A program made the position numbers and the translations under genes. A DNA stretch of 64,000 nucleotides from an uncultured Fidelibacterota bacterium (GTDB lineage: Bacteria; Fidelibacterota; UBA8477; JABMPR01): the NCBI GenBank assembly GCA_937888365.1, contig CALBFA010000042.1:1-64000 (forward strand). The letters run 5' to 3'. The notes beneath the pieces were generated by a model that worked only from the letters and a program-made list of their open reading frames with translations, was not told the DNA's origin and made no database searches. Of the stretch, positions 15,011 through 33,861 are shown piece by piece (position 1 is the first letter of the stretch; each line of letters begins with the position of its first letter).

Positions 15011-15250
15011 ATGATCGCCACAGCCAAAGATTTAAGATTCCATTCAAAGGAATTACTTGATACGGCCAAACGGGGAGAAGAAGTCATCATTACCTATAGA
15101 GGCAAGCCTTATGCAAAGCTAGTATCTGTTGTGAACGAAACTCACAAAACTGAAAAAATCAAACACAATCTCTTTGGCATATGGTCTGAATATCCAGAAA
15201 CGGAAGATGTAAATGAATTTGTAGATACACTTCGAAAAGGTCGCTTCTAG
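15011..15250 (+). CDS. Phd/YefM-type antitoxin
   Basis: SD ggagg then MIATAKDLRFHSKELLDTAKRGEEVIITYRGKPYAKLV; stop overlaps the downstream PIN ORF. Confidence 0.85.
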   Translation: MIATAKDLRFHSKELLDTAKRGEEVIITYRGKPYAKLVSVVNETHKTEKIKHNLFGIWSEYPETEDVNEFVDTLRKGRF

Positions 15251-15630
15251 TGCTCATTGATACCGATGTCTTAATATGGTATTTGCGAGGAAATAAAAAA
15301 GCTCAACAATTAATTGATGGCTTGGGATCGTTCTCCATTTCGGTAATTACGTATATGGAGCTGGTTCAAGGCATGAGAAATAAGCGCGAATTAAATGAAT
15401 TTAGGCGAGCACTCAGCGATTGGAATACCCAACTTATTTATATTAATGAAGAGATATCATCCAAAGCCATGTTTTTAGTTGAACGATATTTTTTAAGCGA
15501 CGCCATACAACTAGCAGATGCGCTTATTGCATCGACGGTATTAACAAGTGGTTTACCAATATGCACAGGAAATGTCAAACATTATAAAGCAATCAAACAG
15601 ATTGAAATCAAAGTTTTTAAACCATGCTGA
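15250..15630 (+). CDS. VapC-like PIN-domain toxin
   Basis: MLIDTDVLIWYLRGN ... VITYMELVQG ... DALIASTVLTSGLPICTGNVKHYKAI; GTG start overlapping the antitoxin stop. Confidence 0.88.
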   Translation: MLIDTDVLIWYLRGNKKAQQLIDGLGSFSISVITYMELVQGMRNKRELNEFRRALSDWNTQLIYINEEISSKAMFLVERYFLSDAIQLADALIASTVLTSGLPICTGNVKHYKAIKQIEIKVFKPC

Positions 15631-15751
15631 TGTGTTACATTCTCATTAATGAGGGAATCCTTTTGAAAATCAATGGTAAAAACTGCCGCCATTCAATTAA
15701 TGTGGGCAAACCTAATATTTTCAGATAATTAGTTAATACGCTAAGCTATAA

Positions 15752-16351
15752 ATGGAAATGACCTATTCTCGCCGCTCCCTCGCCTATATCGCCGTTTTCG
15801 GAAGTGTTTGGGGCGTGGCGGAAGCGACATTTGGCAACATGATTCATCTACTTCATTTGCCATTGTCGGGAGCATTATTAAGCGCAATGAGCCTTGTTTT
15901 TATGTTGACAGCGCGACGACTCAATCCCGTTTCTGGTTCAACATTTTTAATGGCGCTTATTGCCGCATCCATAAAAATGCTGAGTTTTACCGCTGTGAAA
16001 ATAGGTCCCTTCGCAGGGATTGTGATCGAAGGACTCATTGCGGATATTATTTTATCGGTACTTGGAAATCGAAAATCGTCTTGGTTGCTGACAGGTTTTA
16101 TCGTCGGCATTTATCCAATAATCCAGAATCTAGTCACGAAATCGCTCCTGTTTGGTCTTGATTTTATCAATGTCATTTTTGAAATGGCTGAAGGGTTTTC
16201 GGAAAAAGTTGGATTCCAATTGGGATGGTGGCTTATTATTTTCTACATCGGTGTCCATGTCGCTCTGGGTCTTGGTTCTAGTATTTTTACGTGGAAACTC
16301 CAAAACCAGATTGAACAAAAATTAAATAAGAAGAAAACAACGACCTTTTGA
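15752..16351 (+). CDS. Polytopic membrane protein, possibly ECF-transporter S-component-like
   Basis: ~6 hydrophobic segments; pattern KIGPFAGIVIEGLIADIILSVLG reminiscent of S components. Confidence 0.5.
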   Translation: MEMTYSRRSLAYIAVFGSVWGVAEATFGNMIHLLHLPLSGALLSAMSLVFMLTARRLNPVSGSTFLMALIAASIKMLSFTAVKIGPFAGIVIEGLIADIILSVLGNRKSSWLLTGFIVGIYPIIQNLVTKSLLFGLDFINVIFEMAEGFSEKVGFQLGWWLIIFYIGVHVALGLGSSIFTWKLQNQIEQKLNKKKTTTF

Positions 16352-17457
16352 AAAAAATGATGCAAAATAAGCGATTCCTCGTCGTTTTAGCCATCATTAT
16401 TCAATTGATAGGGTTCTTTGTTTTTAAATATGGGTGGCTCATTTTTACGATTTATGTCCTGGTATTTTTAAGTTACCCCCAATCATTGAAACCTCTAAAA
16501 AACCGAAAATTTTGGGTCACTTACATTATACTCTTATTACTCGTTCCCATTTTTGCCCGAGACCCTCAAAGTCAGTTTTTAGGCGTTTCTTATAATGCAG
16601 AAGTCCTTTCACAAATGCTTATGATGTCATTACGCGGATTGATGCTTTTCGCCTTGTTTCAAGTGATGACATTTAATCTTCCCCGGTCAACGATAGAGAC
16701 ATTTATACAGCGAATTAATTTGCCCTATTTGGCAGTGATTTTAGAAATGGCGCAAAAGGCCTCACCCGCTGTTAAAAGTATTTTTATTGCGCGAAAATCA
16801 ATATTTTCAAGAGCTTGGGCAGAGGAAAAATCGCTACACCTCATAATCGAATATTTTACAGATATTATGGTCGATTTTATTGCTTTTGCAGATGACTTAA
16901 CGCGCGACGAAAGTGCACAATCCATGATGTCTCCTCAATCCATTTTTGATGCAATTGACGCCAGCTCAAGGCGTCGCATATTTTTAGTGTCAGGGCATGA
17001 AGCCCAAGGCAAAACGACATGGATAAAAGCATTTATTACTGAGGCGAACAATCGAAAAATCGCGGTTGATGGTTTTATTTCAGAGCAAAAAGCATTTCGC
17101 CAGGATAGATGGGCTCAAGAGCTGGTTCGAATTAAAAATGGCGAGTCTCATTTTCTAAGTACGAGTGACGAAATTGAAAGCGCTTTGCATATTGGCAAAT
17201 ATTATTTTGATGCATCATGCTTTGATTGGGCTTTTGACTCGCGACATAGTATCTCAGATGACTGCTTATACTATATACTTGATGAAGTCGGATTCCTGGA
17301 GCTGGAGGGGAATGGTTTTCACTCATTCATACAATTTTTAATATCGGATCAGCAGGATATAAATTTGATTATAAGTGTTCGTAAAAAATTATTGGCTAGA
17401 GTAGGAGCTTATCTTGCGTCATTGGGACTCGCTGCGGAAAATATTCATATCGTTTAA
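16348..17457 (+). CDS. EcfT-like membrane domain fused to a THEP1-like P-loop NTPase domain
   Basis: N-term TM segments; FLVSGHEAQGKTTWIKAFITEANNRKIAVDGFISEQK Walker A; YYILDEVGFLELEGNGFHSFIQFLI Walker B-like; translationally coupled to the preceding gene. Confidence 0.6.
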   Translation: MKKMMQNKRFLVVLAIIIQLIGFFVFKYGWLIFTIYVLVFLSYPQSLKPLKNRKFWVTYIILLLLVPIFARDPQSQFLGVSYNAEVLSQMLMMSLRGLMLFALFQVMTFNLPRSTIETFIQRINLPYLAVILEMAQKASPAVKSIFIARKSIFSRAWAEEKSLHLIIEYFTDIMVDFIAFADDLTRDESAQSMMSPQSIFDAIDASSRRRIFLVSGHEAQGKTTWIKAFITEANNRKIAVDGFISEQKAFRQDRWAQELVRIKNGESHFLSTSDEIESALHIGKYYFDASCFDWAFDSRHSISDDCLYYILDEVGFLELEGNGFHSFIQFLISDQQDINLIISVRKKLLARVGAYLASLGLAAENIHIV

Positions 17458-17608
17458 GACCCTTTCATTTTCTAAGACGTACAATCTGTCATTCTGCACC
17501 ATGCTGAAGGGAAGGGTTTCCGTACCCTACGCAAATATAAATTGTATCAATGGGAATATTACTGGTTTTAAGAGGATGGTATAGTACGGAAAATACAGTA
17601 GCCGTATC

Positions 17609-17620
17609 AATTCTAGAATT
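17609..17620. promoter_or_regulatory. Perfect 12-bp palindrome AATTCTAGAATT, candidate upstream activator site
   Basis: Lies ~150 bp upstream of the sigma-54-like promoter. Confidence 0.25.
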
Positions 17621-17762
17621 AAATAGTAATATAAATTACTTGATTATTTTGCATTATTACCACAAGGGAAAAATTTTACTTCACTGCAACATACTGTTCA
17701 TAAAAATATCGTACTAGCGCCGATGCTTAAAAATCATTACTCAATAATCGCAAGGAATGTTA

Positions 17763-17779
17763 TTGGCATGCAACTTGCA
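17763..17779 (+). promoter_or_regulatory. Sigma-54 (-24/-12) promoter candidate
   Basis: TTGGCATGCAACTTGCA matches YTGGCACGN4TTGCW with exact 12-bp GG-to-GC spacing; intergenic and upstream of the cytochrome cluster. Confidence 0.7.
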
Positions 17780-17831
17780 AAATCACCGCCTTGAAAAAGA
17801 GAAGTGGAGAAACGCATTTTAACTTACGACA

Positions 17832-17987
17832 GTGAAACAGATTTTAAACGACGCAAGAGCCTTATTTTCTGTCCGTGCTTTCTTGAATTTTCTTGATGTT
17901 TCAACCGAACTCCTTAGACTGTACGAACATGAAAACCGCATACGGAAAAACGATTTTGATGTGTTGTCTCAACCCAATGCAAAATAG
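17832..17987 (+). CDS. Possible small protein (51 aa, GTG start), function unknown
   Basis: VKQILNDARALFSVRAFLNFLDVSTELLRLYEHENRIRKNDFDVLSQPNAK*; directly downstream of the sigma-54 candidate; below the ORF-track cutoff. Confidence 0.35.
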   Translation: MKQILNDARALFSVRAFLNFLDVSTELLRLYEHENRIRKNDFDVLSQPNAK

Positions 17988-18010
17988 AGTTCCACCCAAT
18001 TATAGGGATT

Positions 18011-19654
18011 ATGAAAATCAAGAGATTGAAACAAAATTATCATTTGATTACTAAAGATGAAATACTCGAGGAAAACGTGTTAAGATATAAAATAACTATA
18101 ATTATGCTTGTGGCCACTTCCATGTTTTTTTGGAATTGTGACCCCATTGACCCACCCGTTGATCCAAACGACCTTTCAGAAAATACATGTCAAGGATGCC
18201 ATACGTCAAGGCAAGTGCTAGAAGGCATCATCTCAGAACTTCAACTCGACGATGATAGCAGCGCGGTGCATGTCCCTGGCGATGGTTCGGCTGCGACATC
18301 TTTAGCGCTTGTTGAGAAAATTTTAATTCGACTCGACCCAGATAATAATATTCACATGTTCTCAGATATTGACTCGATTCATGCGCGTATTGCGTGCTCA
18401 GGTTGCCATGGCGGTGCCTCGCCTGTTGATGCGGCAGACGATGCATCAACCTTTCGTCTTGCCCATGAAGGATTGAGACGAGATCCATCAGCAGATCCAG
18501 AACAAAGTTGCGGCGGAGCGCTTTGCCACGAAAGTATTGTCCAAAAGCATCAAACAAGTATGCATAGTAATTTGTGGGGACAAAAAGCGCAGGTCGCGTT
18601 AAGAGCCGGATACGAAACGTTTGAAGAATGTCCTTCTGAAATTAAGGATGGCTTTACAAAAGATTGTGCCAGCTGCCATGCGACATGCGGGCAATGTCAC
18701 GTTAGTCTCCCTAATGCTGCAAAAGGTGGATTTATCAATCAAAACCCTGGAATGAGTCATAAGTTTATCAAAACCCCCGACGAAGCAAATGTATGTACGG
18801 CTTGCCATCGTTCTCGAATCGGTGATGAATGGAATGCAAATCAAGAGCGCGTTCCCGGCAATTTTCCCGATTTACATAATAATGCTGGCATGACCTGCTT
18901 AGATTGCCATATCGAAGATTTACATGGTGAAGGCGGCGAAGAAGCCACTTACACGTCGCGTTCTCAAGTTCAAAGCATTCCAAAATGTACTGAGTTTTGC
19001 CATGTAAACGACCGCGACGACAATTTATATCATGCACAGCATTGGCCCAATGGTGACAAAACGGACGGTGCTGATTTGAGTTGTTTCGTCTGTCATTCTC
19101 AAGAATATACCAATTGCAATACCTGCCATGCAGGATCTTGGCAAGATGAATATGCAGCCAATAACACAGGCGATTACCGCGTCTATCCTCAGTTTAAAAT
19201 TGGCATGAACCCTCATTATAAAGAAGCCAATCATCCCCATACAGATTCTCGGTTTATTACGGTTCGACACGTACCTGCTTCTCGCGATATGTTTAGCAAT
19301 GAACCCTGGGGGATAGCCGAATTGTCAGCATTTGACAGTCTGGAAACCTGGAAATATTCGAGCTCTCACTCCCTCCAACGCTGGACAGACCGAACGCTAG
19401 TGCAGTCCAATTGGGCAGAATCGGATACAATCGCTTACACAACTGAAACCTGTTCACAGAGTTGTCACTTCCATTCAGGTGGGGCTTATTCTAATCCTGT
19501 AAATAAAGGTCTATATTTGTTACTTCAAGATTTTACGAGTGATGCCACTGGCGAAGATTTATCTGACGAAATTACAGCAAATCAAAGTACGATGCTCTAT
19601 GTTCCAACAAGTGGTTGTAGCTCTTCGAGTAGTTGTCACGCAGATGATCATTAG
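18011..19654 (+). CDS. Multiheme c-type cytochrome, possible lipoprotein (8 CXXCH plus 4 candidate expanded motifs)
   Basis: CQGCH, CSGCH, CASCH, CGQCH, CTACH, CLDCH, CFVCH, CNTCH; plus CGGALCH, CTEFCH, CSQSCH, CSSSSSCH; exact start uncertain. Confidence 0.9.
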   Translation: MKIKRLKQNYHLITKDEILEENVLRYKITIIMLVATSMFFWNCDPIDPPVDPNDLSENTCQGCHTSRQVLEGIISELQLDDDSSAVHVPGDGSAATSLALVEKILIRLDPDNNIHMFSDIDSIHARIACSGCHGGASPVDAADDASTFRLAHEGLRRDPSADPEQSCGGALCHESIVQKHQTSMHSNLWGQKAQVALRAGYETFEECPSEIKDGFTKDCASCHATCGQCHVSLPNAAKGGFINQNPGMSHKFIKTPDEANVCTACHRSRIGDEWNANQERVPGNFPDLHNNAGMTCLDCHIEDLHGEGGEEATYTSRSQVQSIPKCTEFCHVNDRDDNLYHAQHWPNGDKTDGADLSCFVCHSQEYTNCNTCHAGSWQDEYAANNTGDYRVYPQFKIGMNPHYKEANHPHTDSRFITVRHVPASRDMFSNEPWGIAELSAFDSLETWKYSSSHSLQRWTDRTLVQSNWAESDTIAYTTETCSQSCHFHSGGAYSNPVNKGLYLLLQDFTSDATGEDLSDEITANQSTMLYVPTSGCSSSSSCHADDH

Positions 19655-19770
19655 CATTAATCCAGACTTGAAATTACAACGATTCATATTTTTTAATCAA
19701 CTGAATAGTGATGTAAGCATCATTTCTTTTATAATGAAAAGCAGTAAAGGCTAAACGTACCGCAATTTTT

Positions 19771-20625
19771 ATGAATCGTTTGTTTCTACGCCACATAATA
19801 ATCCAATTGTCTACCATAACGTTTGTTATGACATCTGGATTATGGGCACAGGTAACGTTGCCACGCGTTGAAAATCCTCATTTAGGCGGTGACAATTGTC
19901 TGGTTTGTCATAGGGGTGAGGGTGAGCCATCGACGAAAAATTTAATACCCAATGCTTGCGCCAAATGCCATTCCACTAAAAGTATCAATCAACAAATTCA
20001 TATTTTATCCCCAGTAAATCTTGATAGTAAAAAGAGGGGCGTTTCAATTCCAAAGTTATTCCCACTTGAGAGTAATGACAGTTTAAGTTGTTCGACGTGT
20101 CATCAGGCATCATGCAAACCTCAGCGGTCGAACTCGTCATATCTTCGAGGTGCGCCTTATGCATCAGAATTGGATTTTTGTTACGCTTGCCATAACGAGA
20201 AATCTTTCGTGAGAGTCAATCCACATCAACAGATTAATAAATCAGGCAAAATTATTGAATCGACCTGTTTAAATTGCCATAAAGTAGTACCAGATATTCA
20301 TAAAGAAGAAACCGAAATGCTCCAAATGAGTATCGTTGAAACATGCAATAAATGCCACGCCATGCCCAATCATGAAGTCAATCACATGGGCAAAGCCATC
20401 AACAATTTTAAAAATATTAAAATGGTATTTGAAACGCAGGCTAAGAAAACAGGTATTTCTTTGCCTTTAACAGATGAAAAAACACTTTCGTGTACAAGCT
20501 GTCATAATGTTCATAATAGGAATGTTTTGATAAAAGCAGACGATACAAAGCATCAACCCAAAGTAAATCAACATTTTTTACAATTACCGAAAGCACAATT
20601 GTGCAAAGCTTGTCATGGCTATTAA
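19771..20625 (+). CDS. Octaheme c-type cytochrome
   Basis: Signal peptide; CLVCH, CAKCH, CSTCH, CYACH, CLNCH, CNKCH, CTSCH, CKACH. Confidence 0.92.
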   Translation: MNRLFLRHIIIQLSTITFVMTSGLWAQVTLPRVENPHLGGDNCLVCHRGEGEPSTKNLIPNACAKCHSTKSINQQIHILSPVNLDSKKRGVSIPKLFPLESNDSLSCSTCHQASCKPQRSNSSYLRGAPYASELDFCYACHNEKSFVRVNPHQQINKSGKIIESTCLNCHKVVPDIHKEETEMLQMSIVETCNKCHAMPNHEVNHMGKAINNFKNIKMVFETQAKKTGISLPLTDEKTLSCTSCHNVHNRNVLIKADDTKHQPKVNQHFLQLPKAQLCKACHGY

Positions 20626-20651
20626 TGCAAAGATTACGTGAGAATTGAGTT

Positions 20652-22388
20652 ATGAGAAAAAATTACTTTATCCAGACAAAAAACTCAGCAAATAATCCAA
20701 TAATGCAAAATAATCGTATGATTTCCTCGTTTCGATTATTGGTTCTATGTTTCATTCTCTTGTTTGTAACATCACCCATTTTTGCAGAAGATGATGCCAA
20801 ATGCATGAGCTGTCATCAATATGAGAATTTTGGGCGCATTGATGAAAATGGCGTCTTCCACAATTATTATATCGATGCAGAGAAATTTCAAAATTCAATT
20901 CATGGTACATTAACCTGTACCGCTTGTCATGGTGACATAACCAATATTCCCCATAATCCAAAACCTGTCCCTGTTGATTGCGGACAAGCCTGCCATTTAG
21001 AAGAGCCTTTTAGTCAAAAACCTTTCAGTCATAGCGGTATTGCTAAATCGATTAATAATTCAATCCATGGCAAAAAAGGTAACGATAATGACAAAGACAA
21101 GCCTGTTTGCAAAAGTTGTCATGTTAATCACGTCTTTAAAGAATATCATGAAAATATCGTTGCCCAAAAAGCCGAAAATTGTATGGCTTGCCATGAAGGA
21201 GAACAATTTTCAGTAGCCTTACGTCATATTGAGGTTTTCGGCGGTGATCTTTCCTATTGGAATCAAAAAAATAAAATATCGATATGTGTAAACTGTCACG
21301 CGAATGCCGACATCCAAAGAAAAACACAAGAAGTTGGTGAAATTGACGAAGTTGCGTCCTTTCTAAAAACCTTTCATGGCGTTGGATATTCGTTTGGCGA
21401 CGAAGCAGTGCCTGTATGTTCAGATTGTCATTCGTATCATAATGTTTTTCCGCAATCCGACGTTCGCTCAAAAATTCATCCATTACAGTTAAGCAAAACA
21501 TGTACAAGTAGCGGATGTCATGAAGGCGCTTCCGATAGTTTTATTTCGGGTTCGATGCATTTTCGCTATACGGGCTATCAAGCGAAAATCTTAAAATATA
21601 TTCGATTAATTTGGACGTCTCTTATTATCGGTGTCATAGGATTTATGATTTTGCATAATTTCGCCGATTTCTTTCGAAGTAGAGAGCATATTAAAAAACA
21701 TGGTTATCCAAAAGCAGCTCGTGCAGGAAAAGCCTATCTTCGACTGACTAAAGCAGAGCGCGTTAGCCATATCATTATGTTCGTAACCTTCACACTATTG
21801 GCAATATCGGGTGCGATGCTGTGGTTACCACGAGAAAGAATGCTTTGGTTGCCGCAATGGTTTTTCCAAAATGAACTACGAAATTGGATCCATCGTATCG
21901 CAGCCATCGGCATGTTCCTCGTATCTTTTTATCATATTGGCTATGCCATATTTACAAAACGCGGACGATTCTTGCTCTTTCAAATGTTCCCTAAACTCAT
22001 CGATGCAACGACATTTATGCAAAATATGATGTTTCTCTTTAGACTTAGAAGTACACCGCCAAAATTCGGTCACTTCAATTATTCCGAAAAGATGGAATAC
22101 TGGGCCTTTGCCTGGGGCTCATTTGTAATGGGCGGTACAGGTATTATTCTTTGGTTCGAAAATCTGGGCCCAAAATTTTGGGTTGATGTCTCGCGACTTA
22201 TTCATTCCCTTGAGGCAATATTAGCCGTCTTGGCGATTGTGGTATGGCATTTTTATCTCGTCCATTGGAAACCGGGAAAATGGCCCATGAGTAACGCTTG
22301 GATTACAGGTGTCATTTCAGAAGATGAAATGAAAGAGGAACACTTGGCTCGTTGGGAAGAACTCGAAAAAGAAGGAGAGGAATCATGA
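20652..22388 (+). CDS. Multiheme cytochrome c / cytochrome b561-like membrane fusion (CbcL-like quinone-linked oxidoreductase candidate)
   Basis: CMSCH, CTACH, CKSCH, CMACH, CVNCH, CSDCH plus CGQACH, CTSSGCH; C-terminal TM region VSHIIMFVTFTLLAISGAML...NWIHRIAAIGMFLVSFYHIGYAIF...LIHSLEAILAVLAIVVWHFYLVHW with paired His. Confidence 0.88.
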   Translation: MRKNYFIQTKNSANNPIMQNNRMISSFRLLVLCFILLFVTSPIFAEDDAKCMSCHQYENFGRIDENGVFHNYYIDAEKFQNSIHGTLTCTACHGDITNIPHNPKPVPVDCGQACHLEEPFSQKPFSHSGIAKSINNSIHGKKGNDNDKDKPVCKSCHVNHVFKEYHENIVAQKAENCMACHEGEQFSVALRHIEVFGGDLSYWNQKNKISICVNCHANADIQRKTQEVGEIDEVASFLKTFHGVGYSFGDEAVPVCSDCHSYHNVFPQSDVRSKIHPLQLSKTCTSSGCHEGASDSFISGSMHFRYTGYQAKILKYIRLIWTSLIIGVIGFMILHNFADFFRSREHIKKHGYPKAARAGKAYLRLTKAERVSHIIMFVTFTLLAISGAMLWLPRERMLWLPQWFFQNELRNWIHRIAAIGMFLVSFYHIGYAIFTKRGRFLLFQMFPKLIDATTFMQNMMFLFRLRSTPPKFGHFNYSEKMEYWAFAWGSFVMGGTGIILWFENLGPKFWVDVSRLIHSLEAILAVLAIVVWHFYLVHWKPGKWPMSNAWITGVISEDEMKEEHLARWEELEKEGEES

Positions 22389-23146
22389 AAAAAAGATATC
22401 GTGGTTTAGGCTACTTATTTTTCGGACTTATCACTATCACATCGGTTATTATGATTTATAGTTTTGCGAGAGGTTTAGTTGGCAAAGCAACCCGTTCGTC
22501 TGATAATCTCATTCCAGAGTCATCCATAACGCAAGAATTATTAAATACCAACCCAGGTGATGTTCTTAAGCAATTTGGTAGTGATTATAACGCAGCACAT
22601 GACAATTTTCATTATTTCCCTTCTGTCGAAATGGTGGATGCAAAAAATCGCTCAGCTTGTCTATTTTGTCATACACCAATGCCTCACAATAGAGAAATCA
22701 AACATCGGGCATTTTTAAATATGCATACAAGCTATCTCGCTTGCGAAAGTTGCCATTACGAGTATAGCGAGTTTTCATGGATGGATATGGAATCGATGAA
22801 AAAACTTTCGGGCAAACCACCTGTCAAATCTAAAATGCGCCGATTTCTCATTGTACCTTTGGTAAATGGTGAAGTCCAATTTCAAAAGCAATCCAACACC
22901 CAATTTCAAGAATTAGCGCAAACGAAAAATTTTGCTGATCGTCGCAATAATACGGAGACCCGAAAAGCGGTGGAAGGCAATATTCTCACCAATCCATTGG
23001 ACTGTCTCACTTGTCATAAAAGCGAACAAACCTACCTCGATTTAAAAAGTCTGGGCTATGATGCCGAGAGGGAAAAAACCCTTGAAAGCTTAAGTATTCC
23101 TTCTGTTTTTGAATCGTATCAGGAATTTTTCTTACCCGAATTATAA
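22385..23146 (+). CDS. Membrane-anchored triheme c-type cytochrome
   Basis: ATGA overlap with the upstream gene; N-terminal TM anchor; CLFCH, CESCH, CLTCH. Confidence 0.85.
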   Translation: MKKRYRGLGYLFFGLITITSVIMIYSFARGLVGKATRSSDNLIPESSITQELLNTNPGDVLKQFGSDYNAAHDNFHYFPSVEMVDAKNRSACLFCHTPMPHNREIKHRAFLNMHTSYLACESCHYEYSEFSWMDMESMKKLSGKPPVKSKMRRFLIVPLVNGEVQFQKQSNTQFQELAQTKNFADRRNNTETRKAVEGNILTNPLDCLTCHKSEQTYLDLKSLGYDAEREKTLESLSIPSVFESYQEFFLPEL

Positions 23147-23147
23147 A

Positions 23148-24032
23148 ATGCATAATTTCATAAAACAAATATTCCCGTACCTTCTTTTACTTCTGTTAAG
23201 CATTAGCAGCGTAATAGCTCAAGGCAGCCGTGTCTCGCTTTTGGAAACCTTCAAAGACGAATCAATGAAACTCCCTAGCGATATTGCCATCATTTCTGAC
23301 AATAAAGTTTTAATTGCTGATGGCGTAAACAGTCGTTTGGTCCTTGTGACGATGGGAAATCAAACGCCCAAATATGTGCAATTTCCCGCATTTAAGCGAC
23401 CTCTGGGAATTTGCTCAGACGATGCGGGCGGTGCTTGGATAACGGATACAGAAATTCCAGCACTCTTTCATATTGATGCCAATCTTCAATTGGTCAAAAT
23501 GCTTTATCTTTCACCAGACATTAATCCGACAGACGTACTCTATGACCAGAATTTCCTTTTCGTCGTTGATAATTCAAGCCATTCCATCCTCAAAGTAAAC
23601 TTGGCTGGCGAAATTGTTTCTCAGTTTGGAAGCAAAGGCGACGGTCGTGGTCAAATGTCATACCCCGCCATGATTGCAAAAGATTCCCAAAGTCTACTGT
23701 ATATCACCGATGTTATGAATGCACGCGTCGTTATTTTTGATGTGAATGGAAAGTACTTGGGTCGCTTAGGAAGCTATGGTGTCACGGAGAATAAATTGTA
23801 CAGGCCTAAAGGAATTTGCGTCTCGGATCAAGGCTATGTTTACGTGAGCGACAGTTATTTAAATAGGGTTATTTGCTATGATGCCAAAGGCGTCGGTCAA
23901 ATACTCCATGGCTCGAGTTATAATAATATGACGTTTGATAATCCTCTGGGTGTTGCCGTTTTAGGCGAGTCGATATTTGTGCTGGAAAGTTTCAATGCAA
24001 CACTACGTCATTTGGATATTGAAATACGGTGA
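23148..24032 (+). CDS. Secreted NHL-repeat beta-propeller protein
   Basis: Signal peptide; repeats such as GRGQMSYPAMIAKDSQSLLYITDVMNARVVIFDVNGKYLGRLGSYG / YRPKGICVSDQGYVYVSDSYLNRVICYD. Confidence 0.85.
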   Translation: MHNFIKQIFPYLLLLLLSISSVIAQGSRVSLLETFKDESMKLPSDIAIISDNKVLIADGVNSRLVLVTMGNQTPKYVQFPAFKRPLGICSDDAGGAWITDTEIPALFHIDANLQLVKMLYLSPDINPTDVLYDQNFLFVVDNSSHSILKVNLAGEIVSQFGSKGDGRGQMSYPAMIAKDSQSLLYITDVMNARVVIFDVNGKYLGRLGSYGVTENKLYRPKGICVSDQGYVYVSDSYLNRVICYDAKGVGQILHGSSYNNMTFDNPLGVAVLGESIFVLESFNATLRHLDIEIR

Positions 24033-26098
24033 GTTCGATTTTGAATAATCATATTAGTACTAAAACGAGCATACCAAAATCGCAGATTTCAAAATGTGCG
24101 CGTCTGAAAAGGCTATCGAGTTGTAGTTTGATTCTCGTTATAATGATGCTTTCGACGCAGATGCTTTTTGCCAAGAAAAAAGAATTGAAAGCCAGCCCAA
24201 ATCAGGAATGTACCGTTTGCCACATCAATTGGCATCCTGAAAACCAAAAAGCACAAAAATATATCGTATCGTCCAATACCAATGTCATTATTGACGGCAA
24301 ACCATCCTTGGTTGCGGATAGAAGAATGTGTTTATCCTGTCATGATGGCTACGTCATGGATTCCAGAGAAATATTCTTTAGCGACAATCATCAGCATTTT
24401 GATGAAAAACACATGGACGTATTGGGTTTTCCATTAACAGAAACAGGCGATATCTATTGTGGTACCTGCCACACGCTTCACGCTATTAAAGGCGACAAAG
24501 CTGTTGGTCCAGCGCCTTTTATTCGCGAGGCCGTTTCGAATTCCAAACTTTGTATTGCGTGCCATACGGGTCAGCAAAATATCGTTGGGAATCATCCTTA
24601 CGGTATCAGTTTAGCCGATAAAAAATTCAAATTACCGCCGAAAGCACATCTGGAAAATGAGACGCTGGAGTGCCTTACCTGCCATCAAATGCACGGGCCA
24701 GAGCCAACGCTTTTATCTCAAAATGGCGATTATAGCGAGCTTTGTACCACCTGTCACGCTGAAAAGAAAAATATCTATAATTCACCCCATGATTTGCGTA
24801 AGATGCCTGATTTGAGCCCCAATAATGCCTGCGCTGTTTGCCATTTACCTCATGGCGGGAAAGGCAAATATTTATGGGCGATGGGGAAATCTGATAAAAA
24901 AGAACAAAATGAATATTGTCTCGATTGTCATAATGCAAATGGACTCGCAGCAGAGAAATCGTTTGTCCATAAAGGGCATCCGGTGACGGGAAAAGTTTTT
25001 AAGAAAGACATCGCGGGTCTTCGTATTAAAGCCGGCAACAAAATTTCATGTTTGTCTTGCCATGATGCCCATCAACCTGGGAAACCAACGTATCCGCCAG
25101 CACCAGAAGAACCTTTTTATGCATTTTTGAAAATAGCCAATGATTTTGACGGAGCACTTTGTACAACCTGTCACGAAAATGAAGCTGACATCAAATATTC
25201 AGACCACAGTGTCGCTCGATCCGATTTTGCCGATCATTTAAAATCAAACAATAAAACCGTCTCAACATGTAACTCTTGCCACAATATGCATAATGATGAG
25301 AATTGGAAATATGCATCCGATCCAATTTGCCTAGACTGTCATACGGAGAGTGATTCGCATAAATCTTACGCAAATGGTGGACATCCTTTATCGGTGACAT
25401 TTAAATCAAAAACAGGATTACCTGTTGTCGGCGATACGCGGGATCGCATTGGTTGTGTAACATGCCATAATCCCCATGCCTGGGGAAGTCCAGTCACTGA
25501 TTTAACGTCAAATTTGGACGGCGATGAATCCAACTCATTTTTAAGAATTGCTAATACAAAATCGAACCTTTGTATGGACTGTCACGAATCTAAGGCAGCT
25601 GTTTTTGGGTCGCCTCACGATTTGGGTACCGACGAAGTAAGCACTTGTGCCACCTGTCACGCCATACATCAACCAGCGGACAATACAGCTCTTATCAATC
25701 CTTGGAAAACAGACGTGTCAGAAATACCACACGAAAATCAATGTTTAGACTGTCATTCACAGGGTGGAGCCGGTGAAAAAGCCATCCCCCAAGCTTGGAA
25801 ACATCCAAAACAATATTTATTACAAAGTGCAAAATCTCGTGGCGACAAAGACAAAGTATTCCCATTGTATTTTGATGGCGAACATGGCGACAACATTGGC
25901 GCAATCAATTGCTATACCTGTCATAATCCACACGAATGGTCCTCATATTCCGCAATGACGAAAGCCGATAATCCTCAGGTGAAGACATCATTCTTACGGC
26001 AAAAAAGTAGCGATACTTATTGTGCCGATTGTCATGGAAAGGCGACACTTTGGAAGTATAATTATTTCCACGATCCCGATAAAAGAGGGCGATATTAA
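24029..26098 (+). CDS. 18-heme c-type cytochrome (doubled CXXCH type)
   Basis: 18 CXXCH motifs counted, many with CHNPH/CHAIH/CHQMH context; signal-like N-term hydrophobic segment. Confidence 0.92.
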   Translation: MSSILNNHISTKTSIPKSQISKCARLKRLSSCSLILVIMMLSTQMLFAKKKELKASPNQECTVCHINWHPENQKAQKYIVSSNTNVIIDGKPSLVADRRMCLSCHDGYVMDSREIFFSDNHQHFDEKHMDVLGFPLTETGDIYCGTCHTLHAIKGDKAVGPAPFIREAVSNSKLCIACHTGQQNIVGNHPYGISLADKKFKLPPKAHLENETLECLTCHQMHGPEPTLLSQNGDYSELCTTCHAEKKNIYNSPHDLRKMPDLSPNNACAVCHLPHGGKGKYLWAMGKSDKKEQNEYCLDCHNANGLAAEKSFVHKGHPVTGKVFKKDIAGLRIKAGNKISCLSCHDAHQPGKPTYPPAPEEPFYAFLKIANDFDGALCTTCHENEADIKYSDHSVARSDFADHLKSNNKTVSTCNSCHNMHNDENWKYASDPICLDCHTESDSHKSYANGGHPLSVTFKSKTGLPVVGDTRDRIGCVTCHNPHAWGSPVTDLTSNLDGDESNSFLRIANTKSNLCMDCHESKAAVFGSPHDLGTDEVSTCATCHAIHQPADNTALINPWKTDVSEIPHENQCLDCHSQGGAGEKAIPQAWKHPKQYLLQSAKSRGDKDKVFPLYFDGEHGDNIGAINCYTCHNPHEWSSYSAMTKADNPQVKTSFLRQKSSDTYCADCHGKATLWKYNYFHDPDKRGRY

Positions 26099-27060
26099 TG
26101 CGTAAATCGACTTCTATTATTCTCATTTGTCTGCTGAGTATATCTCTCTACAATTGTGCCAATAATGGCAAAAAAACGACGCCTATAGAAACAAACAATA
26201 AATCTCAATCTTATTTTTCGTGGACGAATCAAGGCATTCAGTTCAAGGCTTCAAAAAATGTATTTTTGGGTAAACTTCTGGGGCACAATCAATTTATTAG
26301 GTTTTCGAATTTATCAGATATCGCCACAATTGAGAACGATGTCTATATTTTAGATGAAAATATTTTATATCAATCCGTTTTAAAAAATGACGCATTGGTA
26401 CTAAAAGCCTCCCATGGGTTCAATGAGTATTCACCGTCAATTCTTGCCGTAACAAAAGAATCCATTTTTCTAATTGACAATACTTCCCACGCACTCATTA
26501 TGTTGGATAAATCCAATTTTAAAGAACTCAATAAGCTGCAACTTCCTGTCAATAAAAGCTGCTCAGATATGTATTGGGATGTTGAAAATAACCAAATATT
26601 GATGACATTTCCCCATGTTCAAAAAATTTACGCCTATGATATTCAAAAGACAACTTTCGCAATATATCCAATCAACACGCCTCTCTATTTACCTGTTGCT
26701 ATTACAAAAGACAATGCAGGTGAAACTTACCTTGTTGATGCCTTGATGCGGGAAATTGTCGTCTCGTCGAAAGATGGAAAAATTAAAACAATATTTGGCT
26801 CTTACGACACCGTTCCTGGCTCATTTACATTTCCCAAAGGGATCGAAATTGCATCGGATGGTATCGTATTTATCACCGACGAAGTAAGTGGAACGATTCA
26901 ATTATTTAATGAAAATGGCGCTCTACTCATTGTCGAATCTCTAGGCGAGCATTTATCCATGCCATCGGCTTGTGCATTTACCGCCGATAGCCATCTTATC
27001 GTTTTGGATAGAGGCCTCAATACTGTCAATGTGTATCATTACGAAGTGATGGAGCCTTAA
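26098..27060 (+). CDS. Beta-propeller (NHL/6-bladed-like) lipoprotein
   Basis: Lipobox-like LLSISLYNC; PGSFTFPKGIEIASDGIVFITDEVSGTIQLFNENGALL; TAATG overlap with the upstream cytochrome. Confidence 0.8.
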   Translation: MRKSTSIILICLLSISLYNCANNGKKTTPIETNNKSQSYFSWTNQGIQFKASKNVFLGKLLGHNQFIRFSNLSDIATIENDVYILDENILYQSVLKNDALVLKASHGFNEYSPSILAVTKESIFLIDNTSHALIMLDKSNFKELNKLQLPVNKSCSDMYWDVENNQILMTFPHVQKIYAYDIQKTTFAIYPINTPLYLPVAITKDNAGETYLVDALMREIVVSSKDGKIKTIFGSYDTVPGSFTFPKGIEIASDGIVFITDEVSGTIQLFNENGALLIVESLGEHLSMPSACAFTADSHLIVLDRGLNTVNVYHYEVMEP

Positions 27061-27062
27061 CC

Positions 27063-28685
27063 ATGAGTGTTCGCATCTTAAACAAAAACTCAACTCGCTC
27101 TTGTTCCCGCATTTCAATGCTGATTGCTTTCCTATTATTGATAATGACCTCCACATTGTTTTCCCAAATGACAGGCAATTTTCAAGGCCGAGTTGGGATG
27201 GATTTAAGTGATACATCGTCTGTAAAAAATGCCCTAACCCATGTCGAACAATTGCAGCTATCATGGCGAGGCAATAGTGCTTTATGGGGAGCATATCGTC
27301 TGCAACTTGGCGGTGTCATGCATGGCAACGGCGCACAAGAAACATTTAATATTTTTCCTGAATATAATATTGCGACGCGTTACAAATTTTGGAAAAATGT
27401 CAACATCGATGTGTATAGTGATTGGCATGTATTGAATCCTCTCACAATTAAGCCAGATGAATTAGTGGGTCGCCAACGCATCAGCGGATTTAAAGTAAAT
27501 ACAACTCTGCCGTGGAATATCCATGTGTCTTTGGGCTTAGGATATCGGACGACGACAGGAGAGTATCAAAAGTACGCAGGTCTCGCCAATGATATTGCGT
27601 TGAGCAAGCACTTTGCTAAAAATACGCTACGTTTTTGGATGCATAATATCTCAGATATTGTGGACAGCAATGTTGTGATGCCAAGTCGTTGGGGTCTTGA
27701 TGGTCGCGGTGAAATTTATGGTGTAAAATGGAGCTCTCGACATGGGAATTATACCTATTCAGGAAAACATTTTGTTCAGAGTTCTCATTTTTTAGAAAAA
27801 GATTTAACACCTAAAATTAAATCTCGTGGCGAAATCAATCTTTACGATTTCGAACAAAAATCGGTTTTTTTTCATCGTCTATCAATGAATTGGACCAACC
27901 GTATGACCGTGTCTAAAAATATAACGGCCATAACGCTCCTCGCTCGTGACCGCGTTACAGAACAAGATAGCTTGGATCGAATTCATTGGCGAAAATATGC
28001 CATAGGCTTGGCATGGAATATTGGAAAAGTAAATCAGTTCAATGGCGAATTTATTATGGGATATAAGCAATCGGCCTCCTATGGACACGGGCTTGATATC
28101 ACCTATAATGAAGATGCGAAATGGAACATCATGCAATCGAAATCCATGAAAATGAGTCTGAAAGATGTATTCTTTGCCGAACTGTTTTCACGAATGGATA
28201 TTCCGAATCAATCAATGATGTACGACATGGATCATCATCTAGAATTCGTTACAGAGTTTCGTCCTCAACAAAAATTCTCGATTCAAAATAGAATTTTCGT
28301 GCAAAATCATTTCGGCTCTGACTTAAATTTTTCTTATGACACGTTGAGAAATCATGTAACGGATCAACTCGCATTTAAAATGACAGGACAATCGCTTCAA
28401 AGTTTTTCCAGCTTTTCAACGATAATGGACATGGATTCCTCAGACGTTAGTTTCCGAGTGGATTCGCGACTTTATCTTAAAACCAGCTCCACAACATCCT
28501 TGCGTTTTTGGGGCGGCTATCGTTTTGGTTCGTCAATATATGATGACTTAGGTCAGGCATCTGCCTTGTTTCGCTTCTCTTATCCACGATGGACATGGGC
28601 GGCAGAATGGCTGTATTTTGGATATCCTGCCCTTGATCAACCCAAGGAATCGCAACTCTGGTTCCGTTTTACGAGGCGTCTATGA
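27063..28685 (+). CDS. Predicted outer-membrane beta-barrel, candidate porin of a porin-cytochrome conduit
   Basis: Signal peptide; alternating amphipathic strands throughout, C-term LWFRFTRRL; coupled to flanking cytochrome genes. Confidence 0.65.
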   Translation: MSVRILNKNSTRSCSRISMLIAFLLLIMTSTLFSQMTGNFQGRVGMDLSDTSSVKNALTHVEQLQLSWRGNSALWGAYRLQLGGVMHGNGAQETFNIFPEYNIATRYKFWKNVNIDVYSDWHVLNPLTIKPDELVGRQRISGFKVNTTLPWNIHVSLGLGYRTTTGEYQKYAGLANDIALSKHFAKNTLRFWMHNISDIVDSNVVMPSRWGLDGRGEIYGVKWSSRHGNYTYSGKHFVQSSHFLEKDLTPKIKSRGEINLYDFEQKSVFFHRLSMNWTNRMTVSKNITAITLLARDRVTEQDSLDRIHWRKYAIGLAWNIGKVNQFNGEFIMGYKQSASYGHGLDITYNEDAKWNIMQSKSMKMSLKDVFFAELFSRMDIPNQSMMYDMDHHLEFVTEFRPQQKFSIQNRIFVQNHFGSDLNFSYDTLRNHVTDQLAFKMTGQSLQSFSSFSTIMDMDSSDVSFRVDSRLYLKTSSTTSLRFWGGYRFGSSIYDDLGQASALFRFSYPRWTWAAEWLYFGYPALDQPKESQLWFRFTRRL

Positions 28686-30265
28686 GATTTATAAAAATGT
28701 TTACGCCCATTAAACGAAGCATACTCTTAATCGGTATCGGATTGCTTTCAATTTCATCTGTTTGGTCACAAGACTCAACGGAAACAATTTCAAAGTTGGC
28801 AAATTCACCTCATGATTTCACGTCATATTTGGATTCATTGCGCATTGCATCAGGCGAAGAAAAGCTAAGCAATATCACCGTGTGTCGCCAATGTCATGCA
28901 CCGAGTTTAAAACCCGGTTTAGAGCCTCTTTGGGATCGTCAAAATCCTGGCACAAATTTTCATGTTGATAAACATAAAAAAGATTTAAGTGAGGGCTTGC
29001 CCACGGATGGCGGAAGTCGTCGATGTTTGGCATGTCATGATGGTGTTATGGCGAAAGGCTTTCCCAAACGTGATGTCGAAAGCCAAGTTTCATTGGAAAA
29101 GGACGTCAATTCGCATCTCTATACACACCTTTTTAATATGACGTCAAGTAATATCGATTCGGCGCTTCATGTGTATAACAGTCGTGTTTCTTGTGGATCA
29201 TGTCATAATCCTCATAACAATGACAATGGCTCGTTTCTAAGAATTTCGACGCAAGATGGCGCATTGTGTTTAGGATGTCACGTCATGCCTAATTGGGAAA
29301 TATCCAGCCATGTTTCGCCGCTAGATGAACGTTACGGCAATCATTTTATGAAAGACGGCTGCCTTCAATGTCATGACATCCATGGAACGCCGGGAACAAC
29401 ATCATTATTAGCCAAAAATGAAGCGGAGCTGTGTTTAGCGTGTCATGATGCATCTATAAATAATGATGACGAAATAACCGCGAAACAGAATCTTAAAGAA
29501 GTTTTTGAAAAACCATACGCCCATCCAATATTTTTTGAATCTGGAAAAGGTGACGATGGCTTAAATCATGAACGCGGAGTTTTGTGCAGTGATTGTCATA
29601 ATCCTCATGAAATAACGCATTTCAATGAACCCATGTTAAATGGTGCTTTAAAAGGTGTTGATGGCGTGGACGAAGACGGAAACGAATTGAGCGCCAGTCA
29701 TTTCGAATACGAAATTTGCGCAAAATGTCATAATGGTAACTCGGAAAAAATGTTGGCAGAAAATATTGACCGACTTTTCTCGCCTATGAATCAAAGTTTC
29801 CATCCTGTCAAAGCGCCTGGAAATAATCCGAATGTTCCCTCATTAAAAAAAGATTTATCTGAACAATCATTGATTACGTGTAGCGATTGCCATGGTAATA
29901 ATGACAAAGCAGGCGCCGCTGGACCTCATGGTTCCGACGTGGCGCATATTTTAAAATTTGATTATTCGGAAAATCCTTTTGCATCACCTGGTTCTGACGA
30001 TTTATGTATGAGTTGTCATAATTTGAGACGCCTAAAATCGGATGTGGGATTTAAATTCCATAGTTTGCATATCAATCAAGGCAATTTCGCCTGCGCCGCC
30101 TGTCATAATCCTCATGGACGAGTCAACGAGCCAGGCTTGGTTGACATCGATTTACCTTGGATACTAGCGGTTAATGGCGAAAAATCAGTAGAGGCGCGCG
30201 AGCCTGGCCATGGAAATTGCACTTTATCTTGCCATGGTGTTGATCACCGTGGACAATCCTATTAA
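28682..30265 (+). CDS. Multiheme c-type cytochrome (11 CXXCH plus 1 CX3CH)
   Basis: CRQCH, CLACH, CGSCH, CLGCH, CLQCH, CLACH, CSDCH, CAKCH, CSDCH, CMSCH, CAACH, CTLSCH; start overlaps the barrel stop. Confidence 0.92.
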   Translation: MRFIKMFTPIKRSILLIGIGLLSISSVWSQDSTETISKLANSPHDFTSYLDSLRIASGEEKLSNITVCRQCHAPSLKPGLEPLWDRQNPGTNFHVDKHKKDLSEGLPTDGGSRRCLACHDGVMAKGFPKRDVESQVSLEKDVNSHLYTHLFNMTSSNIDSALHVYNSRVSCGSCHNPHNNDNGSFLRISTQDGALCLGCHVMPNWEISSHVSPLDERYGNHFMKDGCLQCHDIHGTPGTTSLLAKNEAELCLACHDASINNDDEITAKQNLKEVFEKPYAHPIFFESGKGDDGLNHERGVLCSDCHNPHEITHFNEPMLNGALKGVDGVDEDGNELSASHFEYEICAKCHNGNSEKMLAENIDRLFSPMNQSFHPVKAPGNNPNVPSLKKDLSEQSLITCSDCHGNNDKAGAAGPHGSDVAHILKFDYSENPFASPGSDDLCMSCHNLRRLKSDVGFKFHSLHINQGNFACAACHNPHGRVNEPGLVDIDLPWILAVNGEKSVEAREPGHGNCTLSCHGVDHRGQSY

Positions 30266-30584
30266 GCACTAAAATAGCGCTCCAATAATCGCTGGTTTTT
30301 AGCAAAATAGGCTATGAATTTCAGACAATAAATCAGATAATATCGCATTGATATATGGCTCAAAACGAAGTAAAAAACTCCTGGAATTTATGATGTATCA
30401 TAATGATAATAAAGATGTTATGGTTCTAATAATGAGTGAATATTGTTCATCAAAGTTAATGTTACATAATCGAAATAACTTCCGTGTGCTCACTACTAGC
30501 ATTTCATCGTAATTGTTGTAAGTTCTGCGCACAAAAAATATGAAGTTGTTTAAAGAAATAATTAACCAAATTAAGGATACGATC

Positions 30585-32498
30585 ATGAAAAGAAGCCTTT
30601 TGAGTGTTTTAGTTCTAGCTCTTATTATCAATTTAGTCAGTTGCGGTGGTGGTGAATCCGTACCGATTTCACTTCGGACGAAACCAGTTTCAGTAAAAAT
30701 ATATGATACTCCAAAAGGAGCGGATCCTGCTGTATCAGCAGAGATGGGTGGAAAAGGTTTCGAAGCCCTTGCAGATAAACTAGGATATGAAACTTATATT
30801 GGCGAAAACGAAGCAGACCCTGCCGCTAAAAAAGGTGGTCGTATTACAACGCGCATAACAGAATTCCCTGCATCTTTAAGAACCGTTGGGAAGGATAGTA
30901 ACTATGACGTTCTATCCTCCATAGATGGTTTAGTGTATGAACGATTGATGAGTTATGAATATAAAACAAGCAGCTTTACGCGTGGGCTTGCGACGCATTG
31001 GTATATTTCAGAAGATCAGAAAACATTTCGTTATCGCATTAATCCTGATGCACGCTGGTCCGATGGAAAACCCGTAACAGCAGAAGATGTTGTTGCATCC
31101 TGGAAACTGAATGTCGATGAAGGCATCCTTGAGCCCTATTCAAATATGCTGTATTCAAAATATTCAGAGCCTAAAGCCATTAGCAAATATATTGTTGAAA
31201 CATCTGTTACGGAAGACAACTGGCGTTTGTTTTTCTACTTTTCTGTTTCAATGGGTATTATGCCCGCTCATCATTTAAATGATGTAACCGGTGCTGAATA
31301 TCTCAAAAAATATCAATTCGATATGATGCCCGGTTCAGGTCCTTACGTTGTGGATTCGGCCAAAGTTAAAAAAGGGAAATCATTGACTCTCGTAAGACGT
31401 AACGACTGGTGGGGAGCTAATTTAGCAGAAAGTAAAGGCGCTTATAATTTTGATGAAATCAAATTTATTGTCGTTTCCGATGATCGTTTGACACTTGAAA
31501 AATTCAAAAAAGGCGAAATTGACATTAACTTTGTGACACGTGCACAATGGTGGGTTGAAGAATTTGATGAAACAAGAACAGATTTTGACGCACTCCATCG
31601 TGGACTTATTCAAAAACAAAAAACATTCAACTTTCATTGGAAGGGCATCTCAGGGCTTGCATTTAATATGCGTCGTGCTCCTTTTAATGACATCAAAATT
31701 CGAAAAGCGTTTGCGCGTTTATGGAATAGAGATTTACTCATTGATAAATTATTTTTCAATGAATATGGTAAGTTAAATTCATATTTCCCTGGTGGAATCT
31801 ATCAGAATCAAAATAACCCAATGATTGAATACGATCCTGAAGAAGCGATTGCCCTTTTGGCTGAAGCCGGTTGGAAAGATCGAGATAACGAAGGATGGCT
31901 GGTAAAGGATGGTAAAATCTTTGAACTGGAAATGGGAATTGATCAGTCTCTCGAACGTATTTTTACGCCGTATCAAGAAGAACTTGCAAAAGCAGGGATT
32001 AAACTCAATCTTCGCTATGTGACATCCCAAACGATGTTTAAAAATGTTATGAATGAACGTGATTTTGACATCCATTATCAAGGTTGGACGGGTTTGATGT
32101 TCCCGAACCCAGAAAGTTCATTCCATTCCAATATGGCGGATGTTGGTGGCACAACGAATATTACGGGACTTAAAGATCCACGTGTTGATGCCCTATGCGA
32201 CGAATATAACGAAAGTACAGACGCAAAACGTCGTGTTGACATAATTCGGGAAATGGATGGCATCATCGCTGATATAGAACCTTATGCATTAGGATGGTTC
32301 GCGCCTTATACGCAACGCTACGGATATTGGAATAAATTCGGGATTCCTGCAAATCCATTTGGTTATTCTGGCGATTGGAAATCTTTATTTAGTCTTTGGT
32401 ATATTAAGCCAGACATGGCTGTTCAAGTCGATAAAGCAATGAAAGATCCATCCATGACTTTTCCATATAACAAACATATTGTTACAGCTGAAAAGTAA
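30585..32498 (+). CDS. Peptide ABC transporter substrate-binding lipoprotein (SBP family 5)
   Basis: Lipobox LIINLVSCGGGE; ATHWYISEDQKTFRYRINPDARWSDGKPVTAEDVVASWKL; ORF may start at 30540. Confidence 0.92.
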   Translation: MKRSLLSVLVLALIINLVSCGGGESVPISLRTKPVSVKIYDTPKGADPAVSAEMGGKGFEALADKLGYETYIGENEADPAAKKGGRITTRITEFPASLRTVGKDSNYDVLSSIDGLVYERLMSYEYKTSSFTRGLATHWYISEDQKTFRYRINPDARWSDGKPVTAEDVVASWKLNVDEGILEPYSNMLYSKYSEPKAISKYIVETSVTEDNWRLFFYFSVSMGIMPAHHLNDVTGAEYLKKYQFDMMPGSGPYVVDSAKVKKGKSLTLVRRNDWWGANLAESKGAYNFDEIKFIVVSDDRLTLEKFKKGEIDINFVTRAQWWVEEFDETRTDFDALHRGLIQKQKTFNFHWKGISGLAFNMRRAPFNDIKIRKAFARLWNRDLLIDKLFFNEYGKLNSYFPGGIYQNQNNPMIEYDPEEAIALLAEAGWKDRDNEGWLVKDGKIFELEMGIDQSLERIFTPYQEELAKAGIKLNLRYVTSQTMFKNVMNERDFDIHYQGWTGLMFPNPESSFHSNMADVGGTTNITGLKDPRVDALCDEYNESTDAKRRVDIIREMDGIIADIEPYALGWFAPYTQRYGYWNKFGIPANPFGYSGDWKSLFSLWYIKPDMAVQVDKAMKDPSMTFPYNKHIVTAEK

Positions 32499-32511
32499 CC
32501 AAGGATAAATT

Positions 32512-33768
32512 ATGTTTCAATATATCATCAGAAGATTACTGTTGATGATTCCGACATTTTTCGGCATCACAATACTCGTCTTTTCAATATTACAAATTGT
32601 ACCAGGTGGCCCATTAGAACAAGAACTGTTACGCATTCGCTCTGCCATGATGACGGGTGGCGAAGCTGGCGGCGGTAGCGGTGGCAGCGGGGTCATTATT
32701 GAGATTCCTGAAGAAGCACTCAATCGCCTAAAACAGTATTACGGTTTAGATCAACCAGGTGTCATCCGATATTTAATTTGGCTCGGTGTTTGGCCCAAGG
32801 AAATCAATAATTACGAGTTTTCTATCCCCTTGGGAGAGCTGGCAACGACAAAAGAGTTTAGCACCGGCGATGTTCTAAATATTACTAAGAATGGTGATAA
32901 TATTGAAGTCTCTTCGGGTGATGGCAAGAAATGGCTCGGTACCATTATAGAAGTTGAAGAAGGGACAGGCCTTATAAAAGGCAAGGTTTACCAGAAAAAA
33001 TTTGGTGGGATTTTAACAGGCGATTTGGGCGTTTCTTATACGTATTCCGAGTCCGTATGGAATCTTATCAAAGCACGACTTCATATTTCTGCCTATTTCG
33101 GCATCATCAGTTTTCTACTTTCCTATATTATTTGTATTCCCCTCGGTATTTTTAAAGCCATCAAACATGGCTCTACTTTTGACACGGTTACAAGTGTTAT
33201 CGTGTTCGTGGGCTACTCGATTCCTGGTTTTATTCTTGGCGCTGTTTTACTCGTTTATTTCGGTGGCGGTAGTTTCTGGGATGTCTTTCCTCTCGGTGAA
33301 TTTAGATCCGAAGATTTTGAATATTTCACACTTGGCGAAAAAATAATCGACCAGTTGCAGCATACAGTGCTTCCTGTAATCGCCTATATGGTAGGCGCTT
33401 TTGCCACATTGACCGTGCTTATGAAAAACTCATTATTGGCTAATTTAAGTCAAGATTATGTCAGGACGGCTTTTGCGAAAGGCCTGTCAGAGCGTCGCGT
33501 TATCTTTTTTCATACGGTTCGTAATAGTCTTATTCCAATCGCAACAGGTATTGGTGGATTGTTAGGCGTTTGGCTTGCGGGTTCTTATTTGATTGAGCGC
33601 GTATTTAATATCGATGGCATTGGTATGTTAAGTTACATGGCTGTCATTAAGCGAGACTATCCAATTGTTATGGGATTTCTTGTGATTGCGACATTGATTC
33701 GTTTGCTTGGAAATCTTATTTCTGATATGGCTTACGCCGCCATTGACCCAAGAATTCGATTTAAATAA
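32512..33768 (+). CDS. Peptide ABC transporter permease (DppB/OppB-like)
   Basis: MFQYIIRRLLLMIPTFFGITILVFSILQIVPGGP; YVRTAFAKGLSERRVIFFHTVRNSLIPIATGIGGLLG. Confidence 0.93.
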   Translation: MFQYIIRRLLLMIPTFFGITILVFSILQIVPGGPLEQELLRIRSAMMTGGEAGGGSGGSGVIIEIPEEALNRLKQYYGLDQPGVIRYLIWLGVWPKEINNYEFSIPLGELATTKEFSTGDVLNITKNGDNIEVSSGDGKKWLGTIIEVEEGTGLIKGKVYQKKFGGILTGDLGVSYTYSESVWNLIKARLHISAYFGIISFLLSYIICIPLGIFKAIKHGSTFDTVTSVIVFVGYSIPGFILGAVLLVYFGGGSFWDVFPLGEFRSEDFEYFTLGEKIIDQLQHTVLPVIAYMVGAFATLTVLMKNSLLANLSQDYVRTAFAKGLSERRVIFFHTVRNSLIPIATGIGGLLGVWLAGSYLIERVFNIDGIGMLSYMAVIKRDYPIVMGFLVIATLIRLLGNLISDMAYAAIDPRIRFK

Positions 33769-33861
33769 TACGAAATTAATCTCTACTATGACTGTAATTT
33801 CAAAGTTGTCGATTGGTTGAAGGATTAGACCTATAAATTATCAAAGGAATAGACATCATTA

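Follow-up and report, generated by a model that had tools for sequence, protein, structure and literature searches.

Beta-propeller genes within cytochrome clusters are known from Uet (undecaheme electron transfer) of Tenderiales and Gallionella (PMC10734462), from SEEP-SRB1/Desulfofervidus (PMC5539420) and from Desulfovibrio ferrophilus (PMC8322314). Uet comprises UetJ with 11-12 hemes, the two NHL proteins UetHI, the barrel UetC and trihemes, and the operons of SEEP-SRB1/Desulfofervidus and D. ferrophilus contain large cytochromes (16 and 26 hemes) together with six-bladed propeller genes. The ExtHIJKLMNOPQS cluster of Geobacter combines a rhodanese lipoprotein, a barrel, 10-12-heme cytochromes and a cytochrome b (PMC5877670). 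Quinone-reactive proteins of the CbcL/MtoC/MtrH family are defined by an N-terminal multiheme c domain and a HydC/FdnI-like membrane b domain with conserved histidines, and CbcL/MtoC homologues are known to work in both directions (PMC6295460). The heme chain rises 47 A per six hemes in OmcS and 34 A per four hemes in OmcE, and in OmcE the ligation of one heme is shared between subunits (PMC12954529). A literature search for an extracellular electron conduit in Marinimicrobia, with subscription papers mostly outside its reach, found no paper.

Nine genes at positions 18011-30265 of the window (the whole 64,000-nucleotide stretch of DNA that was analysed) probably encode a trans-envelope electron conduit between the quinone pool and the outside. 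The window belongs to a Ca. Marinimicrobia MAG of 2.5 Mb and 95% completeness (G000), and close relatives of its b/c gene (C) were found in MAGs named as Ca. Marinimicrobia (Neomarinimicrobiota). The genes and two elements upstream of them were as follows.

17764..17779, plus strand: sigma54-like promoter element TGGCAT-N5-TTGCA, 5' of the first gene, a consensus match only
17832..17987, plus strand: 51-codon ORF with a MerR-like N-terminal helix-turn-helix, a probable remnant
18011..19654, plus strand: A, multiheme cytochrome (8 CXXCH and 4 CX3-5CH), probable lipoprotein
19771..20625, plus strand: B, octaheme periplasmic cytochrome of the c7/c3/paired-CXXCH type, from family matches and motif counts
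20652..22388, plus strand: C, CbcL/MtoC/MtrH-type quinone-reactive protein with 8 c-hemes and an FdnI/HydC-like b-type cytochrome
22385..23146, plus strand: D, triheme cytochrome with an N-terminal membrane anchor, fused to C in relatives
23148..24032, plus strand: P1, exported NHL beta-propeller
24029..26098, plus strand: E, 18-heme cytochrome with 18/18 CXXCH invariant
26098..27060, plus strand: P2, lipoprotein beta-propeller
27063..28685, plus strand: BAR, predicted outer-membrane beta-barrel of an unnamed family (AF2, Foldseek, hydrophobic alternation)
28682..30265, plus strand: F, 12-heme cytochrome with an OmcE-type head (11 CXXCH and a CX3CH; profile comparison with OmcE)

The positions and counts of the first-pass annotation were reproduced: nine co-directional ORFs, with 8, 8, 6, 3, 18, and 11 CXXCH motifs in the six cytochromes in gene order (54 in total) and seven CX3-5CH candidates, of which four were in A, two in C, and one in F. 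Each of the tight junctions that it had listed from 20652 onward was found again (ATGA at 22385, GTGA at 24029, TAATG at 26098, and ATGA at 28682), with gaps of 1 nt before 23148 and 2 nt before 27063, and the first two genes, A and B, were spaced more loosely, with gaps of 116 and 26 nt, respectively. The ORF-list starts at 22352 and 23109 were upstream TTGs, and the true starts of D and P1 are likely the ATGs at 22385 and 23148. The CXXCH DNA pattern gave 455 matches in the whole genome compared with 104 for the reversed pattern, and the heme motifs were kept position by position in the 16-20 sequences aligned for each cytochrome family; therefore, the abundance of heme motifs exceeded chance. 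No match to F, C, or A was found in the plasmid collection. Directly 3' of the block, positions 30540-37947 of the window read like an oligopeptide/dipeptide-type ABC transport operon, which showed no sign of belonging to the conduit.

A gene-neighbourhood comparison, which the first-pass annotation had proposed, showed conserved synteny in relatives, including those of a second phylum. The order A-(rhodanese)-B-C-D-P1-E-P2-BAR-F was maintained across the Marinimicrobia neighbourhoods examined (L003 and L070 are one contig and were counted once), with occasional losses such as that of B in L003, and it was also found in L006, L007, and L095 of the second phylum, a small phylum represented by five genomes. 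The BAR gene was present in 22 and the E gene in 21 of the 245 genomes of the phylum, all in one order and confined to the same three of its genera; the sole mismatch was G240, whose BAR sits on a 7-kb contig. Wherever the surroundings of BAR were read, F and P2 lay next to it. In L097, C/D-P1-E was present and the barrel and F were not nearby, which suggested that the inner part is able to stand alone. The nine-gene block is thus a real module.

In the inner-membrane part, C matched Ni_hydr_CYTB (1.3e-15) and FdnI (1kqf_C, 7.5e-9), and its eight heme motifs (six CXXCH, one CX3CH, and one CX4CH) were conserved together with 11 other histidines. A multiheme N-terminal c domain followed by an FdnI/HydC-like membrane b domain with conserved histidines is the architecture of the CbcL/MtoC/MtrH family, in agreement with the earlier assignment of the 20652 product as a CbcL-type quinone-reactive protein. 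C differs from that family in having eight hemes that include CX3CH and CX4CH, in partnering or fusing with the triheme D, and in being encoded by two genes in many relatives, one for the heme portion and one for the b portion. All three hemes of D and three histidines were invariant. Whereas the triheme had been taken for a free carrier, D was fused to C in L006, L007, L095, and L097; because this fusion occurs in the second phylum, D was placed in the inner-membrane complex, where it is probably the membrane-anchored subunit of the quinone-reactive complex and the partner of C. In one genus, the genes for a 19-heme cytochrome and then a cytochrome b lay 3' of F (L065:10375-13267, L067:6388-9268, and L070:11999-14932), and these are perhaps a second quinone-reactive pair.

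All 18 CXXCH motifs of E were invariant in 20 of 20 sequences, in which 19 other histidines were conserved, and the 12 heme sites of F were kept together with 14 other conserved histidines. Because the hemes were essentially invariant and about as many other histidines were conserved, E and F fit wires and not an enzyme; judged from the alignments, they are probably wires in which every heme is bis-His ligated and no site is open. An enzymatic role of E was considered and set aside, since each heme can be assigned a conserved partner histidine. E is likely a long wire, and from the rises of OmcS and OmcE its 18 hemes in line would extend over an estimated 140-150 A. The homologues of A, which is probably a lipoprotein, always retained a core of eight hemes and had many invariant residues outside the heme sites. 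No close family of A was found: its profile gave nothing significant against the PDB, and in Pfam/NCBIfam searches A, BAR, and F matched generic heme families at most.

The profile of F matched OmcE (7tfs) over the first ~200 residues of F at 2e-20, and it also matched 9yuq_N over nearly the whole length of the latter at 7.6e-13. When the heme Cys/His were masked, the OmcE fragment scored 21.6 bits compared with a shuffle maximum of 6.5. The masked F profile scored standalone OmcE-like homologues at 10.8-44.0, compared with null maxima of 2.8-7.0, and the other cytochromes of the window at less than 3. An artefact of CXXCH spacing was rejected, since the similarity survived both masked motifs and shuffles. 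By these profile comparisons, the head of F is an OmcE-type tetraheme domain that is homologous beyond heme spacing. His44 was conserved in F, and the early HD/HN histidine of the Geobacter OmcE nanowire was retained; in contrast to OmcE, F is a single protein of 12 hemes that continues into a long C-terminal part. The AF2 model of F, built from four sequences, had a pLDDT of 28.8. An OmcE-like query against the 95% complete G000 matched F alone, and no separate OmcE-like gene was detected.

Both NHL-type propellers that had been noted earlier matched NHL/propeller families, P1 with NHL at 8e-20 and P2 with TEN_NHL at 1.9e-6, and the lipobox cysteine of P2 was conserved among homologues. The propellers had also been regarded as foreign to known conduits and as a possible mark of a distinct architecture; however, they are already described in Uet, SEEP-SRB1/Desulfofervidus, and D. 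ferrophilus, which weakens that point. The AF2 model of BAR, built from four sequences, was of low confidence (pLDDT 53.6, pTM 0.41) and all-beta, with ~25 strands, and outer-membrane barrels ranked first in Foldseek with an E of 1e-5 and TM below 0.35. The strands alternated in hydrophobicity (z 6.9), a test that is supportive only since the strands were taken from the AF2 model itself. BAR and 14 homologues had no relevant Pfam match, including none to the MtrB-type barrel, and no PDB sequence match, and BAR matched none of the known conduit barrels by sequence. The predicted fold, albeit of low model confidence, was in line with the annotation of the 27063 product as a predicted outer-membrane barrel, and the model and its structural matches reasonably support the barrel class, though not its finer features.

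In the proposed chain, electrons would move between the quinone pool, the CbcL-type b/c protein with its triheme subunit, the 18-heme wire, the barrel with the 12-heme protein, and the outside. At the inner membrane, C and D would pass electrons to or from the quinone pool, and E, plus B in most relatives, would carry them across the periplasm. BAR would lie in the outer membrane and hold a cytochrome, for which F is the most likely candidate; three parts would face outside, namely the lipoprotein A, the OmcE-like head of F, and the rhodanese lipoprotein of the relatives. The conserved propellers P1 and P2 may serve as scaffolds or docking sites, keeping E and F in place on either side of the barrel. 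These localisations are inferred, as are the scaffold role of the propellers and the idea that F (or E) threads through BAR. One conserved block would then encode the full chain from the quinone pool to the surface. It joins a domain resembling that of the OmcE nanowire to a barrel and two propellers in one module and offers a concrete candidate for the attachment of cytochrome filaments to the cell.

The first-pass annotation had drawn this chain from quinol to the outside. Its barrel and cytochrome conduit with a CbcL-type protein held; its direction was an assumption, as the CbcL-type homologues run both ways and the genome has two oxygen reductases. G000 encodes two oxidases of the COX1 family, one within an aa3-like gene set and the other within a cbb3-like one, and has a locus with a psrABC-type operon, NrfD, a rhodanese, a sulfur transporter, and a MerR regulator (L112:4668-10632, G000:C73). 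Because of the two oxidases and the polysulfide-reductase-type operon, both directions are possible. An inward conduit, in which electrons from Fe(II), sulfide, a partner cell, or a cathode reach O2 through quinone, would specify the direction of the proposed conduit and overlaps with it. We regard inward flow as quite conceivable, if short of probable: the oxidases and the homologues of C are consistent with it, as is the description of Uet, the nearest named architecture, in cathode- and iron-oxidising bacteria (PMC10734462), but no sequence feature gives the direction, and the psrABC-type operon is consistent with anaerobic respiration. A different reading, in which the cytochromes make up a respiratory complex of the periplasm, A being its catalytic reductase, and the barrel is an ordinary substrate porin, would account for the many invariant residues of A outside its heme sites, for its lack of a close family, and for the occurrence of C/D-P1-E in L097 with no barrel nearby. 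However, the cytochromes of the block contained no CXXCK motif and no known reductase match, the conserved histidines of E and F suffice for full ligation, and BAR keeps its place beside F and P2; we consider this reading unlikely.

The substrate of the conduit may be hinted at by two features of the relatives. Almost every relative with the region, and the second phylum as well, had a gene for a tandem-rhodanese lipoprotein between A and B, and a MerR regulator was found 5' of the cluster; this rhodanese and MerR point to sulfur. The upstream MerR of the relatives was ~41% identical to that at the psrABC, rhodanese, and sulfur-transport locus of G000. In the window, the ORF at 17832..17987 gave local alignment scores of 48-52 with the MerR of four relatives, compared with 41 for the best of 500 shuffles (one MerR), and is by this alignment a probable remnant of the regulator; the sigma54-like element was the single match on the plus strand within 14000-31000. 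The conduit might serve sulfur outside the cell exclusively, in the form of elemental sulfur, polysulfide, or sulfide, with the rhodanese lipoprotein handling surface sulfane sulfur and the wire moving electrons to or from sulfur, which would specify the substrate of the proposed conduit and overlaps with it. In addition to the rhodanese and MerR of the relatives, the rhodanese lipoprotein of Geobacter ExtHIJKL (PMC6148476) favours this assignment, which we regard as conceivable but less likely than not, as the rhodanese gene is absent from the window's own cluster and the regulator is a remnant only, while other roles exist for rhodaneses and ExtI is tied to selenite/tellurite (PMC5877670). 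Elsewhere in the window, positions 38385-38705 hold a small single-domain rhodanese gene (106 aa).

Standalone OmcE-like genes were present in several other Marinimicrobia genera (L132-L137). In their clusters, two propeller genes lay around that of a large protein without hemes; an F homologue with 12 CXXCH (280-317 bits), cytochromes with 13 and 5 hemes, and a pair of a sensor kinase and a sigma54 regulator were encoded there too. The large heme-less protein, a barrel candidate, showed no homology to BAR (hhalign probability 1.7), which indicated that F and two propellers recur with different partners. Both cluster types were on one contig in G237. It is conceivable, though rather doubtful, that F-type proteins are bases seating OmcE-type nanowires, each a cytochrome of the outer membrane that bears an OmcE-like head and is held by two propellers, with interchangeable barrels, and that in the window's lineage the filament was replaced by a fixed wire (the 18-heme E, A, and rhodanese) for extracellular sulfur exchange. 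If this is true, the joining of OmcE nanowires to the cell becomes testable. Two further cytochrome loci were observed in G000. One (L062:1888-12144, G000:C15) encodes cytochromes carrying 23, 39, and 9 CXXCH together with a b-type protein, an Fe-S/FAD oxidoreductase, and a possible barrel of 537 aa, and resembles PCC3-type conduits; the other (L063:2806-9496, G000:C55), which adjoins a chemotaxis receptor, encodes a multiheme bc-like complex made up of a Rieske protein, a cytochrome b, and cytochromes with 14, 9, and 4 hemes.

The block shares with the Mtr/Pcc systems a barrel gene beside multiheme cytochromes, BAR (~25 strands, at low model confidence) lying between the propeller and 12-heme genes, but BAR showed no sequence homology to the known conduit barrel MtrB. 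With Geobacter Ext it has in common a barrel, 10-12-heme cytochromes, and a cytochrome b in one cluster, the rhodanese lipoprotein occurring in the window's relatives only; it differs in having propellers and no Rieske gene. Large cytochromes beside propeller genes are also seen in SEEP-SRB1/Desulfofervidus and D. ferrophilus, whose cytochromes are different and whose core genes include a peptidyl-prolyl isomerase, a family with no match among the nine genes. The nanowire-encoding clusters of L132-L137, which resemble Uet, share the F homologue and a large heme-less protein with two propellers around it, whereas they have an unrelated barrel candidate, 13-/5-heme cytochromes, a kinase, a sigma54 regulator, and an OmcE-like subunit instead of A-E. 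Likened by published gene content, Uet is the closest named architecture, since the block unites an 11-12-heme paired-CXXCH cytochrome (F), two NHL proteins, a barrel, and a triheme. In contrast to Uet, it has neither a tetraheme gene (UetA) nor a peptidyl-prolyl isomerase, and has an 18-heme protein, a CbcL-type protein, and A instead. The combination of a CbcL-type protein, an 18-heme cytochrome, an OmcE-headed 12-heme cytochrome, and an unnamed barrel family is new.
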